This document shows positions 6,310-54,412 of a stretch of 64,000 bases of DNA, piece after piece. The DNA is from Flavobacterium sp. CECT 9288 (lineage in GTDB: Bacteria > Bacteroidota > Bacteroidia > Flavobacteriales > Flavobacteriaceae): positions 434,001 to 498,000 of the forward strand of contig NZ_OU957226.1 in assembly GCF_918731615.1 (NCBI RefSeq). Direction: 5' to 3'. Each line of letters begins with the position of its first letter. The stretch's first letter is position 1. The position numbers were made by a program, and so were the translations under genes. The notes under the pieces are model-generated. The model saw only the letters and a program-made list of their open reading frames with translations. It had not been told where the DNA came from and ran no database searches.

Positions 6310-6347
6310 CAGTTTTATTTGGAGCTTTTTCCAGCTGTACATTCTAT

Positions 6348-6380
6348 CTTTTATATCTTGTAAAAAACAAGATATAAAAG
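6348..6380. repeat. Long AT-rich hairpin between divergent rarA and rhomboid genes
   Basis: A perfect 14-bp inverted repeat (6348-6361 with 6367-6380, CTTTTATATCTTGT/ACAAGATATAAAAG) surrounds five A residues. No T run follows on either strand, so it is not a standard terminator. It lies beyond the candidate rarA promoter. The rest of 6262-6508 holds a short segment (6428-6444) resembling the reverse complement of the CATGCTGA motif in the repeats near 49-52 kb, and no gene. Confidence 0.6.
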
Positions 6381-6508
6381 GATGTCATTCCCATCTGGGC
6401 TAGGGTGTATCGTAAGTAGAGGAGGATGTTTCAGCATGACAAAATTTCATCCTATTTTATTTGGTTGCATTTTTGTACTTAAATGGTAAACACCTACAAT
6501 AGTATTAA

Positions 6509-29825: not shown

Positions 29826-29877
29826 AGATTGAATTTCGATTATCGAAGGATTTGACCTGAATTCATAATCTCAATCT
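29826..29877 (+). promoter_or_regulatory. Structured leader before rpsD
   Basis: An outer 7-bp pairing (29826-29832 with 29871-29877, AGATTGA/TCAATCT) encloses a perfect small palindrome (29835-29840 with 29842-29847, TTCGAT/ATCGAA). The rest of the gap is AT-rich. This could be an autoregulatory leader bound by S4, by analogy with other bacteria. Confidence 0.4.
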
Positions 29878-48007: not shown

Positions 48008-49015
48008 ATGAAAAATGCAAATTCAGTTACACATGTAATCCTTACAGGAGGAGTGGGAAGCAGGCTATGGCCTTTATCACGTAAAAGCCAACCCAAACAA
48101 TATTTGGATTTGTTTGATGGTAAGTCTTTGTTTGAAATGACCGTAGATCGAAACCGGTCTTTGGCAGACACCGTGATGGTGGTTGGAAACACAGATAATT
48201 GTCATTTAAGTAAAAAAGTTTTAGATAAGTCAGGTACTTCATATATTGATATTATTGAAGCGACGCCAAGAAATACTTCTGCCGCAATTGCTTTTGCAGC
48301 ATTTGCCTCAGAACCTGACACAATTTTAATCGTTACCCCATCCGATCATATTATAGACGGGACGGAAGCCTATGAAAGTGCGATTAACCAAGCAGTGGAA
48401 AAGGCATTACAAGGGTATATTGTTACTTTTGGTATAGTTCCTACTAAACCCGAAACCGGCTACGGCTATATAGAGCGCTCTGGAGATGATGTAATTTCGT
48501 TTAGAGAAAAACCCAATAAAGTGTCTGCTAAAGATTTTATAAAGAATGGTAACTTTTTATGGAACAGTGGAATGTTTTGTTTTAAAGCTGCTGTATTTTT
48601 AGAAGAGTTGAAAGTATATAATGCAGAAGTATATGAAAAATCCAAGCAGGTTTGGGAAGCCAACAAAGCAGGGCAATTGGATTTAGAATTGTCAATGGCT
48701 ATTCCGTCCATTAGTGTGGATTATGCGGTGATGGAACGCAGTAAGAAAATTAAAGTGGTTTCGTCTGAGTTTAAATGGTCTGATTTAGGGTCTTTTGAAT
48801 CTGTTTATGATTATTTGGTTTCAAAAGGACAGGTGGTTGATAGCAACGGGAATATGGTTATTGGAACAGATGTATATACTGCTTTTGTGGGGTTAAAGAA
48901 TGCAATTTTTGTACATACGGAGAATGCCAATTTGATTTTGCAAAAAGAAAGCTCACAAGAAGTAAAAAATATTTATACGGAATTAGAAAAAAGTAATTCT
49001 GATTTATTAGAGTAA
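48008..49015 (+). CDS. manC: Mannose-1-phosphate guanylyltransferase
   Basis: The 335-residue nucleotidyltransferase starts with HVILTGGVGSRLWPLSRKSQPKQYLDLF. It has VTPSDHIIDG, a KPETGYGYIE segment, FREKPNKVSAKDF and WNSGMFCFK. It makes GDP-mannose from mannose-1-P and GTP. It lacks the C-terminal isomerase domain of bifunctional ManC/AlgA proteins. It is the last gene of the first polysaccharide block; a strong terminator and the repeat region follow. Confidence 0.92.
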   Translation: MKNANSVTHVILTGGVGSRLWPLSRKSQPKQYLDLFDGKSLFEMTVDRNRSLADTVMVVGNTDNCHLSKKVLDKSGTSYIDIIEATPRNTSAAIAFAAFASEPDTILIVTPSDHIIDGTEAYESAINQAVEKALQGYIVTFGIVPTKPETGYGYIERSGDDVISFREKPNKVSAKDFIKNGNFLWNSGMFCFKAAVFLEELKVYNAEVYEKSKQVWEANKAGQLDLELSMAIPSISVDYAVMERSKKIKVVSSEFKWSDLGSFESVYDYLVSKGQVVDSNGNMVIGTDVYTAFVGLKNAIFVHTENANLILQKESSQEVKNIYTELEKSNSDLLE

Positions 49016-49031
49016 TATTTTTCTCTTTATC

Positions 49032-49080
49032 AAAATGTACCGAAAAGACTTTTTTTAATAAGTTGTTTTCGGTACATTTT
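49032..49080 (+). terminator. Terminator after manC
   Basis: A perfect 15-bp stem (49032-49046 with 49066-49080) has a 19-nt loop and is followed by TTTT. It should end the first polysaccharide operon. Confidence 0.88.
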
Positions 49081-49308
49081 TTTTATGCATGTTTATGGAA
49101 TAATCAAGCGATTAAATTTTTCGTTTTGATTGTCGGGTTGTTTTGTTATGGAGAGCTTTTGTTATGATGAGGAACGAAGCATCTCTACATATTCTTCATT
49201 GTAGCAGACGATTTCATTTTTCGAGTTTATTCTTTTCTTTTGCCTTGATGCAAAAGAAACAAAAGATCAAGCCTAAAAATTAAAAACTTAAAAACTACCT
49301 CAAAACTT

Positions 49309-49370
49309 CGTTCCGCAGCCCGAGCCGTTCGGCTTTCAGCCTCAACTTGCGGACTGCTGCCACTCCGTTT
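49309..49370. repeat. GC-rich, partly palindromic repeat core (first of eight copies)
   Basis: The core of about 60 bp runs from CGTTCCGCAG to CTGCTGCCACT. It contains nested complementary pairs: CCGC with GCGG, GAG with CTC, and AGCC with GGCT. This is far more GC-rich than its surroundings. Other copies begin near 49712, 49961, 50396, 50631, 51670, 52103 and 52546. Two of the three copies downstream of upxY (51670, 52103) read GTCCTTCGTCCTC where the others read GGCTTTCAGCCTC. The three downstream copies end ACTGCG instead of ACTCCG. Confidence 0.85.
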
Positions 49371-49440
49371 TTTCGTTGTTTTTTACATTTTATTTTAAGG
49401 GCGCTTTTCCTGAATTCGTTTATGTAGCAGTTCTATTTGT

Positions 49441-49567
49441 AAATTGTGAACTATAAACTGTAAACTGTGAACTGTGATCTGAAACCTGAAACCTGAAACC
49501 TGAAACTGAACATGCTGCGCTAAGGACTATTTACTGAAAACTGATGACTTTCAACTGTCAACTCTCC
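49441..49567. repeat. Heptad (7-bp) repeat array, first copy
   Basis: Words such as CTGTGAA, CTGTAAA and CTGAAAC recur every 7 bp, then the array passes through an ATGCTGCGCT spacer into a second series whose words end in ACT. Related arrays lie at about 49843-49930, 50093-50237, 50528-50601, 50762-50890, 51801-51954, 52231-52385, 52676-52850 and 54286-54412. The unit number and word choice differ between copies. Confidence 0.85.
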
Positions 49568-50981
49568 CCATTCTGTCATGCTGAGGGACGAAGCATCTCT
49601 ACATATTCTTCATTGTAGCAGACGATTTCATTTTTCGAGTTTATTCTTTTCTTTTGCCTTGATGCAAAAGAAACAAAAGATCAAGCCTAAAACTTAAAAA
49701 CTTAAAAACTACGTTCCGCAGCCCGAGCCGTTCGGCTTTCAGCCTCAACTCGCGGACTGCTGCCACTCCGTTTTTTCGTTGTTTTTTACGTTTTTAATTT
49801 AAGGGCGTTTTTCCTGAATTCGTTTATGTAACAATTCTATTTGTAAATTGTGAACTGTAAATTGTGAACTGTGAGCTGTGAACTGTGAACTGAAACCTGA
49901 AACCTGAAACTTGAAACTTGAAACTTGAAAATTAAAAACTTAAAAACTACCTCAAAACTACGTTCCGCAACCCGAGCCGTTCGGCTTTCAGCCTCAACTC
50001 GCGGACTGCTGCCACTCCGTTATTAGTTGTTTTTTACGTTTTTAATTTAAGGGCGCTTTTCCTGAATTCGTTTATGTAGCAGTTCTATTTGTAAATTGTG
50101 AACTATATACTGTAAACTGTAAACTGTAAACTGTAAACTGTGAACTGTGATCTGAAACTTGAAACTTGAAACTTGAAACTGAACATGCTGCGCTAAGGAC
50201 TATTTACTGAAAACTGATGACTTTCAACTGTCAACTCTCCCCATTCTGTCATGCTGAGGGACGAAGCATCTCTACATATTCTTCATTGTAGCAGACGATT
50301 TCATTTTTCGAGTTTATTCTTTTCTTTTGCCTTGATGCAAAAGAAACAAAAGATCAAGCCTAAAAATTAAAAACTTAAAAACTACCTCAAAACTACGTTC
50401 CGCAGCCCGAGCCGTTCGGCTTTCAGCCTCAACTCGCGGACTGCTGCCACTCCGTTTTTTCGTTGTTTTTTACGTTTTTAATTTAAGGGCGTTTTTCCTG
50501 AATTCGTTTATGTAACAATTCTATTTGTAAATTGTGAACTGTAAATTGTGAACTGTGAGCTGTGAACTGTGAACTGAAACCTGAAACTTGAAACTTGAAA
50601 ATTAAAAACTTAAAAACTACCTCAAAACTACGTTCCGCAACCCGAGCCGTTCGGCTTTCAGCCTCAACTCGCGGACTGCTGCCACTCCGTTATTTGTTGT
50701 TTTTTACGTTTTTAATTTAAGGGCGCTTTTCCTGAATTCGTTTATGTAGCAATTCTATTTGTAAATTGTGAACTGTAAACTGTAAACTGTAAACTGAAAC
50801 TTGAAACTTGAAACTTGAAACCTGAAACCTGAAACTGAACAATGGACTAAGTACTAAGTACTAACTACTGCATACTGAAAACTTTTTACTTAAACCCCAG
50901 GTATTTATAGAAGTGTTCAAAATCTCAGTATATTCATCTTAAAAAACAACTACAACTGCTATATTATCGCAATTGGAGTAT

Positions 50982-50989
50982 TATATTTG
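50982..50989 (+). promoter_or_regulatory. -7 box for the upxY-type gene
   Basis: TATATTTG matches TANNTTTG. It gives a leader of about 15-30 nt depending on the start codon. No matching -33 TTTG is evident. Confidence 0.45.
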
Positions 50990-51026
50990 TTCATTCTTGA
51001 ATTGTACAATGGATATGGATGTAATG

Positions 51027-51491
51027 ATGAATTGGTATGTACTGTATACCAAACCAAAATCGGAAAAAAAAGTAGCAGAACGTTTGACGGAAATGGGAAT
51101 TAATGCCTATTGTCCAATAATTACTAAAATTACGCAATGGTCTGATCGAAAAAAAAAGGTACAGCTACCCTTGTTCAATTCCTATATTTTTGTTCGACTT
51201 ACAGAAAAAGAGCGAAATAGTGTTTTTGATGTTCCAGGTGTTGTGCGTTACTTGTTCTGGTTAGGGAAACCTGCAATTGTTAAAGACAAAGAGATTGAAA
51301 CGATTCAGAACTGGCTTTCTGCCCCAGATACATTTGATGTTGTCATTGATACGTGGAGAAAAGGAGATAAAGTTGTTTTAGAGTCTGGGCCATTTATAGA
51401 TCAAGAGGCTACAGTTCAAGAAGTCAAACAAAACCATTATTTGCTGGTGTTGGAATCTTTGGGTTGTGTGCTAAAAGTAGAGAAGAAATAA
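51027..51491 (+). CDS. UpxY/NusG-family transcription antiterminator
   Basis: The 154-residue protein has a NusG N-terminal domain (NWYVLYTKPKSEKKVAERLTEMG, then IFVRLTEKERNSVFDVPGVVRYLFWLGKPA). A C-terminal KOW-type region follows (GDKVVLESGPFIDQEATVQEV). In Bacteroides, UpxY proteins prevent premature termination in their own capsule operon; here that role is inferred. Start choice is uncertain: in-frame ATGs at 51009, 51015, 51024 and 51027 are possible, and 51027 gives the family-like MNWYVLYTKP. The gene stands alone, with composite repeats on both sides. Confidence 0.87.
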   Translation: MNWYVLYTKPKSEKKVAERLTEMGINAYCPIITKITQWSDRKKKVQLPLFNSYIFVRLTEKERNSVFDVPGVVRYLFWLGKPAIVKDKEIETIQNWLSAPDTFDVVIDTWRKGDKVVLESGPFIDQEATVQEVKQNHYLLVLESLGCVLKVEKK

Positions 51492-51539
51492 GTTTTTTTT
51501 CAAGTGTCTTGCTTTAATTAGGAAATTTATATTTTCAAG

Positions 51540-52860
51540 TTTGTTCTTTTCTTTAGCCTTGATGCAAAAGAAACAAAAATTATTCACGGGTTAATATTGT
51601 TTTTTTGGTATTCATGAATCTTCGATTTCAAGCCTGAAAATTAAAAACTTAAAAACTACCTCAAAACTACGTTCCGCAGCCCGAGCCGTTCGTCCTTCGT
51701 CCTCAACTCGCGGACTGCTGCCACTGCGTTTTTTCGTTGTTTTTTACATTTTTAATTTAAGGGCGTTTTTTCGAATTCGTTTATGTAGCAATTCTATTTG
51801 TAAATTGTGAACTGTAAATTGTGAACTGTGAACTGTGAGCTGTGAACTGTGAACTGTGAACTGAAACCTGAAACTTGAAACCTGAAACTGAACACGCTGC
51901 ACTAAGGACTAACTACTAATTACTGATCACTGATGACTTTCAACTGTCAACTCTCCCCATTCTGTCATGCTGAGGGACGAAGCATTTCTACTTATTCTTC
52001 ATTGTAGCAGACGATTTCATTTTTCGAGTTTATTCTTTTCTTTTGCCTTGATGCAAAAGAAACAAAAGATCAAGCCTGAAAATTAAAAACTACCTCAAAA
52101 CTACGTTCCGCAGCCCGAGCCGTTCGTCCTTCGTCCTCAACTCGCGGACTGCTGCCACTGCGTTTTTTCGTTGTTTTTTTCGTTTTTAATTTAAGGGCGT
52201 TTTTTCGAATTCGTTTATGTAGCAGTTCTATTTATAAGTTGTGAACTGTAAGTTGTGAACTGTAAATTGTGAACTGTAAACTGAAACTTTAAACCTGAAA
52301 CTTTAAACTTTAAACTTGAAACTGAACATGCTGCATTAAGGACTATTTACTGAAAACTGAATACTGATGACTTTCAACTGTCAACTCTCCCCATTCTCTC
52401 ATGCTGAGGGACGAAGCATTTCTACATATTCTTCATTGTAGCAGACGATTTCATTTTTCGAGTTTATTCTTTTCTTTTGCCTTGATGCAAAAGAAACAAA
52501 AGATCAAGCCTAAAAATTAAAAACTTAAAAACTACCTCAAAACTACGTTCCGCAGCCCGAGCCGTTCGGCTTTCAGCCTCAACTCGCGGACTGCTGCCAC
52601 TGCGTTTTTTCGTTGTTTTTTACGTTTTTAATTTAAGGGCGCTTTTTCGAATTCGTTTATGTAGCAGTTCTATTTATAAGTTGTGAACTGTAAGTTGTGA
52701 ACTGTAAATTGTGAACTGTGAACTGTGAACTGTGAACTAAAACTTGAAACCTGAAACCTGAAACCTGAAACCTGAAACCTGAAACTTTAAACTTTAAACT
52801 TTAAACTTTAAACCTGAAACTTGAAACTGAACACGCTGCACTAAGGACTAATCAACTAAA
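51540..52860. repeat. Composite repeat region downstream of the upxY-type gene
   Basis: Three more units lie in the same orientation as the upstream set. Cores begin near 51670, 52103 and 52546. The block of small inverted repeats is truncated in the first unit (from about 51540) and complete near 51966 and 52398. Heptad arrays at 52231-52385 and 52676-52850 include CTTTAAA/TTTAAAC words not seen upstream of upxY. After 52860 the sequence to the HU-like gene is gene-free with no clear repeat. Confidence 0.9.
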
Positions 52861-53294: not shown

Positions 53295-53302
53295 TATGTT
53301 TG
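53295..53302 (+). promoter_or_regulatory. -7 box for the HU-like gene
   Basis: TATGTTTG matches TANNTTTG. A TTTG at 53266-53269 is 25 bp upstream, longer than the usual 19-21. The leader would be about 65 nt. Confidence 0.4.
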
Positions 53303-53370
53303 TAAAGTCAGTTAGATACTTTAGTACGTATACTAAGACAAACTTATTTATTAATTTAATACCAAAAATT

Positions 53371-53754
53371 ATGGCTATTAAATACAAAATTCTTCCAAGG
53401 AAGAACCCGAGAGACTTAGTGGCTCCGGAAAAGTTTTATGCTGCTGCAGTTGCAGATGGCGATGTTGATTTCGAAAGACTAGCAGAGTTGATTTCGTATC
53501 AGAGTACCTTAACTGCTTCTGATTGTTATGCCGTGCTCGCTTCTTTAGAACACAACATCATTGGCGAACTAGGTCAAGGTCGCATTGTGAAGTTAGGCCG
53601 CTTAGGCAACTTTCAAGTGGGCATTAGCTCTGAAGGTAAAGATGTTGCTGATGAGGTATCAACAGCAGCCATCAAAAAAACGCGTGTGCTCTTCCGTCCT
53701 GGTAAGAAAATGCGCAGTATGCTAAAGGATTTATCTTTTAGAAAAGTGGGCTAG
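53371..53754 (+). CDS. HU-like DNA-binding protein (HU-HIG type)
   Basis: The 127-residue protein begins AIKYKILPRKNPRDLVAPEKFYAAAVADGDVDFERLAELIS. It has the HU/IHF-like core STLTASDCYAVLASLEHNIIGELGQGRIVKLGRLGNFQV and a basic tail (FRPGKKMRSMLKDLSFRK). This matches the Bacteroidota HU-HIG group. These proteins bind DNA without strong sequence specificity. The frame is open upstream to 53296, but the family start is the ATG at 53371. It lies between the repeats and the rml genes and may be an architectural protein for the locus. Confidence 0.88.
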   Translation: MAIKYKILPRKNPRDLVAPEKFYAAAVADGDVDFERLAELISYQSTLTASDCYAVLASLEHNIIGELGQGRIVKLGRLGNFQVGISSEGKDVADEVSTAAIKKTRVLFRPGKKMRSMLKDLSFRKVG

Positions 53755-54175: not shown

Positions 54176-54285
54176 TCAAATGTAGCGAAAAGTTTCAATA
54201 TGTGGCGGTGTTATTTATAAATTTAATGTTAAAAGAGGTACGGTTTTTTCGACCTGATTTGTGAAGTAGTTCTTTTTCTTAATTT

Positions 54286-54412
54286 AAAACTGTGAACTGT
54301 AAACTGTGAATTGTAAACTTGAAACCTGAAACCTGAAACCAAAAACTTAAAACTGAGCCCGCTGCGCTAAAGACTAATTACTGAGGACTAACTACTAAGT
54401 ACCAATTACTAT
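54286..54412. repeat. Isolated heptad repeat array upstream of rmlB
   Basis: CTGTGAA, CTGTAAA and CTGAAAC words repeat at 7 bp, followed by CTGCGCTAAAGACT and words ending in ACT. The GC core and the block of small inverted repeats are absent. The remaining sequence up to 54727 has a TAAATTTG box (54510-54517) and a small ATGGC/GCCAT hairpin, and no gene. Confidence 0.8.

Follow-up and report, generated by a model that had tools for sequence, protein, structure and literature searches.

The window analysed here, a 64,000-nucleotide stretch of the Flavobacterium sp. CECT 9288 genome, contains a polysaccharide locus in which repeat units sharing a GC-rich core lie on both sides of the gene upxY. 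To the left of the array are genes encoding an export protein, a tyrosine autokinase, sugar dehydrogenases, and a manC-like product, while the HU-family gene, rmlB, and further polysaccharide genes lie to its right, according to Pfam and NCBIfam matches; the manC-like match falls below the NCBIfam equivalog cut-off. The features are as follows.

48008 to 49015, + strand: manC-like mannose-1-phosphate guanylyltransferase gene bordering the array on its left (Pfam and NCBIfam)
49034 to 49088, + strand: hairpin and T-run following manC, resembling a terminator at the end of the upstream gene cluster (from sequence; -18.9 kcal/mol)
49269 to 49403, + strand: unit 1 core, inverted-repeat (IR) block at 49157-49293
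49533 to 50205, + strand: 673-bp pair of a long and a short unit, copy 1, 97.8% identical to 50206-50878
49683 to 49807, + strand: unit 2 core, IR block at 49565-49707
49921 to 50055, + strand: unit 3 core, without IR block
50206 to 50878, + strand: 673-bp long and short pair, copy 2, 97.8% identical to copy 1
50356 to 50491, + strand: unit 4 core, IR block at 50238-50380
50591 to 50725, + strand: unit 5 core, without IR block
50982 to 50989, + strand: TAnnTTTG, candidate promoter box after the upstream units (motif match)
51024 to 51491, + strand: upxY, NusG-type antiterminator, 155 amino acids from the predicted start ATG (NF033644, Pfam NusG)
51630 to 51765, + strand: unit 6 core, IR fragment at 51532-51578
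52072 to 52199, + strand: unit 7 core, IR block at 51954-52091
52506 to 52641, + strand: unit 8 core, IR block at 52388-52530; mosaic composition, part unit-4-like and part unit-7-like
52682 to 52828, + strand: 7-nucleotide (nt) periodic array after unit 8 (repeat finding); similar arrays trail the other cores
53296 to 53754, + strand: HU-family DNA-binding gene, right neighbour (TIGR01201 above cut-off; Pfam HU-HIG)
54245 to 54411, + strand: unit remnant lacking a core (array and tail), in the gap from the HU gene to rmlB (sequence comparison)

The UpxY protein scores 143.9 bits against NF033644, above the curated cut-off of 100, and carries a Pfam NusG domain, while its gene adjoins the polysaccharide operon, so that the earlier note's placement of an UpxY-type gene inside a polysaccharide locus is borne out. 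By analogy with its family, UpxY would be expected to control this locus. The HU-family product, of 127 amino acids if translation starts at 53371, is 100% identical in F. tiangeerense and 99% in Flavobacterium sp. I-STPP5a, UpxY being less conserved (98% and 92% amino acid identity, respectively). The box at 50982 matches TAnnTTTG, which we take to be the Bacteroidetes -7 box; it is the sole such match on the + strand from manC to the upxY start, and the site agrees with the motif in F. tiangeerense and I-STPP5a as well. The motif itself occurs at about chance frequency (64 kb would be expected to contain 98.6 matches, counting both strands). Elsewhere in the window, Rfam matches are a Flavo-1 RNA (6324-6405, - strand) and an S4-Flavobacteria ribosomal protein leader (29838-29870, + strand).

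Core matches lie at 49315, 49718, 49967, 50402, and 50637 before upxY and at 51676, 52110, and 52552 after it, all on the + strand, and repeat finders agree with this layout. A search of the whole genome (3,700,464 bases in two contigs) returned these eight matches, with 95-100% identity, all of them at the upxY locus, which upholds the arrangement of five same-core units before and three after the gene in one orientation. A chance origin of the array is ruled out by eight cores of such identity falling within 3.7 kb in a genome of 3.70 Mb. The IR block is complete or nearly so in units 1, 2, 4, 7, and 8, reduced to 47 bp in unit 6, and absent from units 3 and 5; the remark that alternate upstream units lack it is thus correct for units 2 to 5 but does not extend to unit 1, which has the block. 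The upstream alternation of long and short units arises because one 673-bp pair was tandemly duplicated, the two copies being 97.8% identical over 645 aligned bases with 56 gap columns. Genome-wide, the IR block has seven matches, six at the upxY locus and one partial copy at 3504874-3504964. The latter belongs to an isolated stretch, away from the upxY locus, that comprises a partial IR block and an array (L042, G000:C1:3504712-3504964, - strand), in a gap flanked by phosphoglycerate kinase-like and lytic transglycosylase-like genes, as named from reading the open reading frames. Decayed unit-like stretches were also seen further along the same polysaccharide locus (L063:13030-13260, about 77.0-77.3 kb on the window scale), and in F. 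tiangeerense units follow the homologue of a gene neighbouring that stretch (L127).

A full unit consists of a REP-like motif, a 10-bp hairpin, the core of approximately 135 bp, and the 7-nt periodic array, in this order. The hairpin reads TTTCTTTTGC-CTTGAT-GCAAAAGAAA and is followed by ATCAAG, and the core has the 3' end TTTAAGGGCG. Of 56 extracted units, 48 were aligned (alignment A1), the remaining 8 being short, edge-cut, or deviant. Under a 34-pair structure, 94.5% of the cells of A1 pair, and cells changed on both sides number 65 versus 31.1 in shuffles, a value reached by none of 500 shuffles; the pairs with a change on both sides are six, which does not exceed the shuffles (mean, 5.0; 136 of 500 reach 6). 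A second core class, represented by seven sequences from L067, L070, L073, and L077, has the ends and the apical motif AGCCGYTCG...CTCRACTCG in common with the first and differs in its stem. In a joint alignment of the two classes, comprising 17 hand-picked sequences, 11 of 25 pairs show changes on both sides with pairing retained. These compensatory changes support the predicted fold, although the two core classes may mean that few independent events lie behind the count. A third core type, holding ACTGGCAGT, was seen between the same ends at L067:5741-5869, and some rows of A1 resemble chimeras of this type and the common core. In G-U versus A-C counts, which bear on the strand of a possible RNA, each predicted structure favours its own strand.

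A covariance model built from these alignments matched all eight window units, four at L052, and two at L062 (one of them weak), and gave a weak match (E = 0.0011) to the decayed copy further along the polysaccharide locus of this genome (L063:13107-13250). None of the window units matched an Rfam family at the gathering score, and permissive Rfam searches of the units returned either nothing or miRNA families far below their cut-offs; no match to a known RNA family was credible.

The repeat family extends across Flavobacterium. The exact core pattern was found in 18 stretches of an 84,980-genome collection (the window's own record possibly not among them), all from this genus, and by similarity the core was detected in 31 of 398 Flavobacterium genomes, with at least 131 copies among them, up to 28 candidates having been scored per genome. 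Dispersed copies have the common ends CAAGCCTG and TAAGGGCG and inverted-repeat cores. The hairpin tag is distributed more widely than the core, being present in 30 of 296 genomes of the phylum, where the reversed pattern occurs in 0 of 296. Tandem hairpin-tag arrays with different cores were noticed in one genome of the same order and another family (G053; L053, L054, and L055), with tag copies approximately 330 bp apart in one array. Specificity of the tag for polysaccharide loci is ruled out, as these tandem copies adjoin housekeeping genes. The core is likewise not strictly specific: 13 of the 18 named stretches lie among polysaccharide genes, the exceptions being L070, L074, L081, L082, and L083, and the polysaccharide protein set matches a flank at 11 of 30 best-core loci. 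Some copies outside polysaccharide loci are oriented against transcription.

UpxY is encoded in 27 of the 31 core-bearing genomes, versus 91 of 150 in a sample of the genus. In eight of the 27 genomes having both, upxY has a core no more than 2.5 kb away, where uniform placement would give 0.19, and 46 of 131 listed copies lie within 40 kb of upxY on the same contig, where 2.9 are expected. The orientation is that of upxY in 44 of these 46 copies, versus 11 of 24 farther off on the same contig, and in 14 of 16 genomes all copies within 40 kb follow it; relatedness renders these placement and orientation tests optimistic, and contig ends hide some core-upxY pairs. At 29 other nearest upxY loci, inspected over 1.5 kb on each side or less at contig ends, no unit module was found, and several of them have 7-nt arrays. 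The units are thus ruled out as a conserved upxY leader, given that the window's is the only one among the 30 nearest upxY loci with units within 1.5 kb.

The layout manC, units, upxY, units, and HU gene is kept in F. tiangeerense (L075) and Flavobacterium sp. I-STPP5a (L078). Comparison of unit number, which the earlier note had proposed between strains as a check, revealed differences between relatives at the same site, namely, 5 + 3 cores before and after upxY in the window, 2 + 6 in F. tiangeerense (one upstream core truncated), and 2 + 3 in I-STPP5a (one upstream core partial), from one genome per species, the latter two being drafts whose counts may suffer from assembly. A single upxY is present at the site in all three, and among the loci read we found no version of the site lacking upxY or having two. 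In F. sinopsychrotolerans (L077), units directly follow upxY, and the nearest upstream unit lies 2.8 kb off, before manC. When the window is aligned with F. tiangeerense, colinearity is left and rejoined inside units, while DNA identity amounts to 94.1% for manC, 97.9% for upxY, and 96.3% for the HU gene. Unit 1, the one window unit for which identity was compared with a positional counterpart, is 95.7% identical to unit 4, 94.4% to unit 8 across upxY, and 91.1% to its counterpart in F. tiangeerense. Unit 8 is identical to unit 4 in slices from 52446 to 52595, part of which is identical also to units 1, 2, and 7, and has its closest match in unit 7 over 52626 to 52715. In trees, one of them built on 23 of the 56 units, most window units cluster with moderate support. 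Topology tests, with both positional pairs picked after the first tree had been seen, did not reject unit 1 beside its positional counterpart (p-AU = 0.20) and gave p = 0.039 when a second positional pair was forced together. Copies at the wza-wzz junction of F. petrolei and F. sinopsychrotolerans cluster weakly (87/77), and the F. limicola copy at this junction clusters elsewhere.

On balance, we lean towards the units being copies of a stem-loop intergenic repeat family that are gained, lost, and homogenised by recombination between neighbouring direct copies, with upxY kept. Turnover of units by recombination is likely because two relatives differ in copy number at the same site and retain upxY, and the 673-bp pair duplication, the mosaic unit 8, and the colinearity breaks inside units argue for it. 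Unequal exchange and gene conversion between direct copies would account for gain, loss, and likeness of units, and recombination would thereby remodel the spacers flanking upxY, with the gene itself retained. We infer that these processes, rather than transposition, are the cause, and that their outcome would be a slow remodelling of the locus and not a population-level switch. Such a switch had been proposed in the earlier note, in which recombination between an upstream and a downstream unit would delete or amplify upxY and so vary surface polysaccharide within a population. The direct repeats on both sides of upxY, and the near identity of downstream unit 8 to upstream unit 4 over its left part, speak for this proposal. 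Against it, conversion accounts for the mosaic unit 8 without loss of upxY, the window and both relatives with this layout have a single upxY at the site, and no site without upxY occurs among the loci read. We therefore deem the switch very improbable, deletion or amplification of upxY being unsupported because the gene is present in each bracketed locus seen. What stands of that proposal is the direct repeats and their recombinogenic appearance, visible in the differing counts, the duplication, and the mosaic unit, while the loss or amplification of upxY does not.

The conserved fold hints at a further function, as recombination has no need of it, which counts against recombination as the whole account. 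The strongest functional alternative is transcriptional, with the units acting as direction-specific terminators or attenuators in UpxY-led loci, where polymerase modified by UpxY would read through and unit number would tune expression. In 46 of 47 units (the 48 of A1 minus one holding an N), the coding strand has the better U-tract after the core hairpin, with a mean T-score of 3.51 versus 1.85, and the bias of nearby copies towards the orientation of upxY, lost farther off, points the same way. In the available parts of the sources, relatives of UpxY are read-through factors, Bacteroides fragilis UpxY preventing termination in leaders upstream of upxY (PMC7819879) and LoaP promoting read-through of intrinsic terminators (PMC12691694). 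The same hairpin, however, folds more stably on the opposite strand (mean of -22.5 kcal/mol versus -15.6 on the coding strand), and a terminator scan gave three sites versus 3.1 expected, with none on the + strand inside a unit. Moreover, UpxY evidently does without units within 1.5 kb at the 29 other nearest loci, some copies elsewhere face against transcription, and the sole candidate promoter box (50982) is downstream of the upstream units, so that we consider this alternative rather doubtful. We also find it unlikely that the units are a non-autonomous mobile element of the MITE or REP type that a transposase moves and that persists chiefly in polysaccharide loci. The dispersed copies, given the ends they have in common and their inverted-repeat cores, would suit such an element, as would the REP-like motif in the IR block and the two Y1_Tnp genes of the genome, but this genome's eight cores are all at one locus and neither an insertion junction nor a target duplication was demonstrated; at one junction compared in its occupied and unoccupied states, the flanks did not align by eye. 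No credible unit match occurs within 1.5 kb of either Y1_Tnp gene, and no link to a RAYT-driven REP emerged.

Like the capsule UpxY proteins of Bacteroides (NF033644), the protein described here exceeds the family cut-off, has a NusG domain, and is placed in a polysaccharide locus, whereas descriptions from Bacteroides, in the parts available, put the action in the 5' leader and name no repeats such as the unit arrays around the Flavobacterium gene. LoaP resembles it as a specialised NusG paralogue for which hairpins and terminators occur together, but belongs to Bacillota and has one small leader hairpin instead of arrays of long stem-loops, as far as the accessible text of PMC12691694 goes. 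Heptamer arrays described from Beggiatoaceae, Cyanobacteria, and some Bacteroidetes, and suggested in the last group to contribute to gene rearrangement, are likewise intergenic with 7-nt periodicity; here, instead, the arrays form only a segment of a larger unit that includes a folded core, and their heptamers have sequences other than TAACTGA, the comparison extending to the portion of PMC4679880 at hand. REP/BIME and MITE-type repeats are similarly intergenic, palindromic, multicopy, modular, and often locally clustered. The units differ from them by combining a core of approximately 135 bp with a hairpin tag, by having two core classes with exchanged stems, and by being concentrated and oriented around upxY, with no cognate transposase identified, the search covering 1.5 kb around each of the two Y1_Tnp genes. 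In contrast to the invertible switches of Bacteroides capsule loci, the eight units share one orientation and no inverted repeats surround the segment. We found no published description of this repeat family in the open-licence papers searched, and the exact hairpin sequence, sought in literature text, led to a single unrelated paper. What appears to be new is a family of structured repeats that have exchanged their stems and that gather around upxY in Flavobacterium in the orientation of the gene.

It is conceivable, though we give the idea little credence, that these stem-loop arrays, absent from Rfam, are one-way transcription brakes released by the locus's own UpxY, with recombination setting the number of brakes and so tuning surface polysaccharide in each lineage. 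Even if inert, the units may account for assembly breaks and length variation at polysaccharide loci, and the family marks how remodelling of such loci proceeds between near-identical species. As a structured repeat concentrated around upxY in its direction of transcription, it also provides a concrete sequence with which to ask how factors of the UpxY type recognise their targets in bacteria other than Bacteroides.
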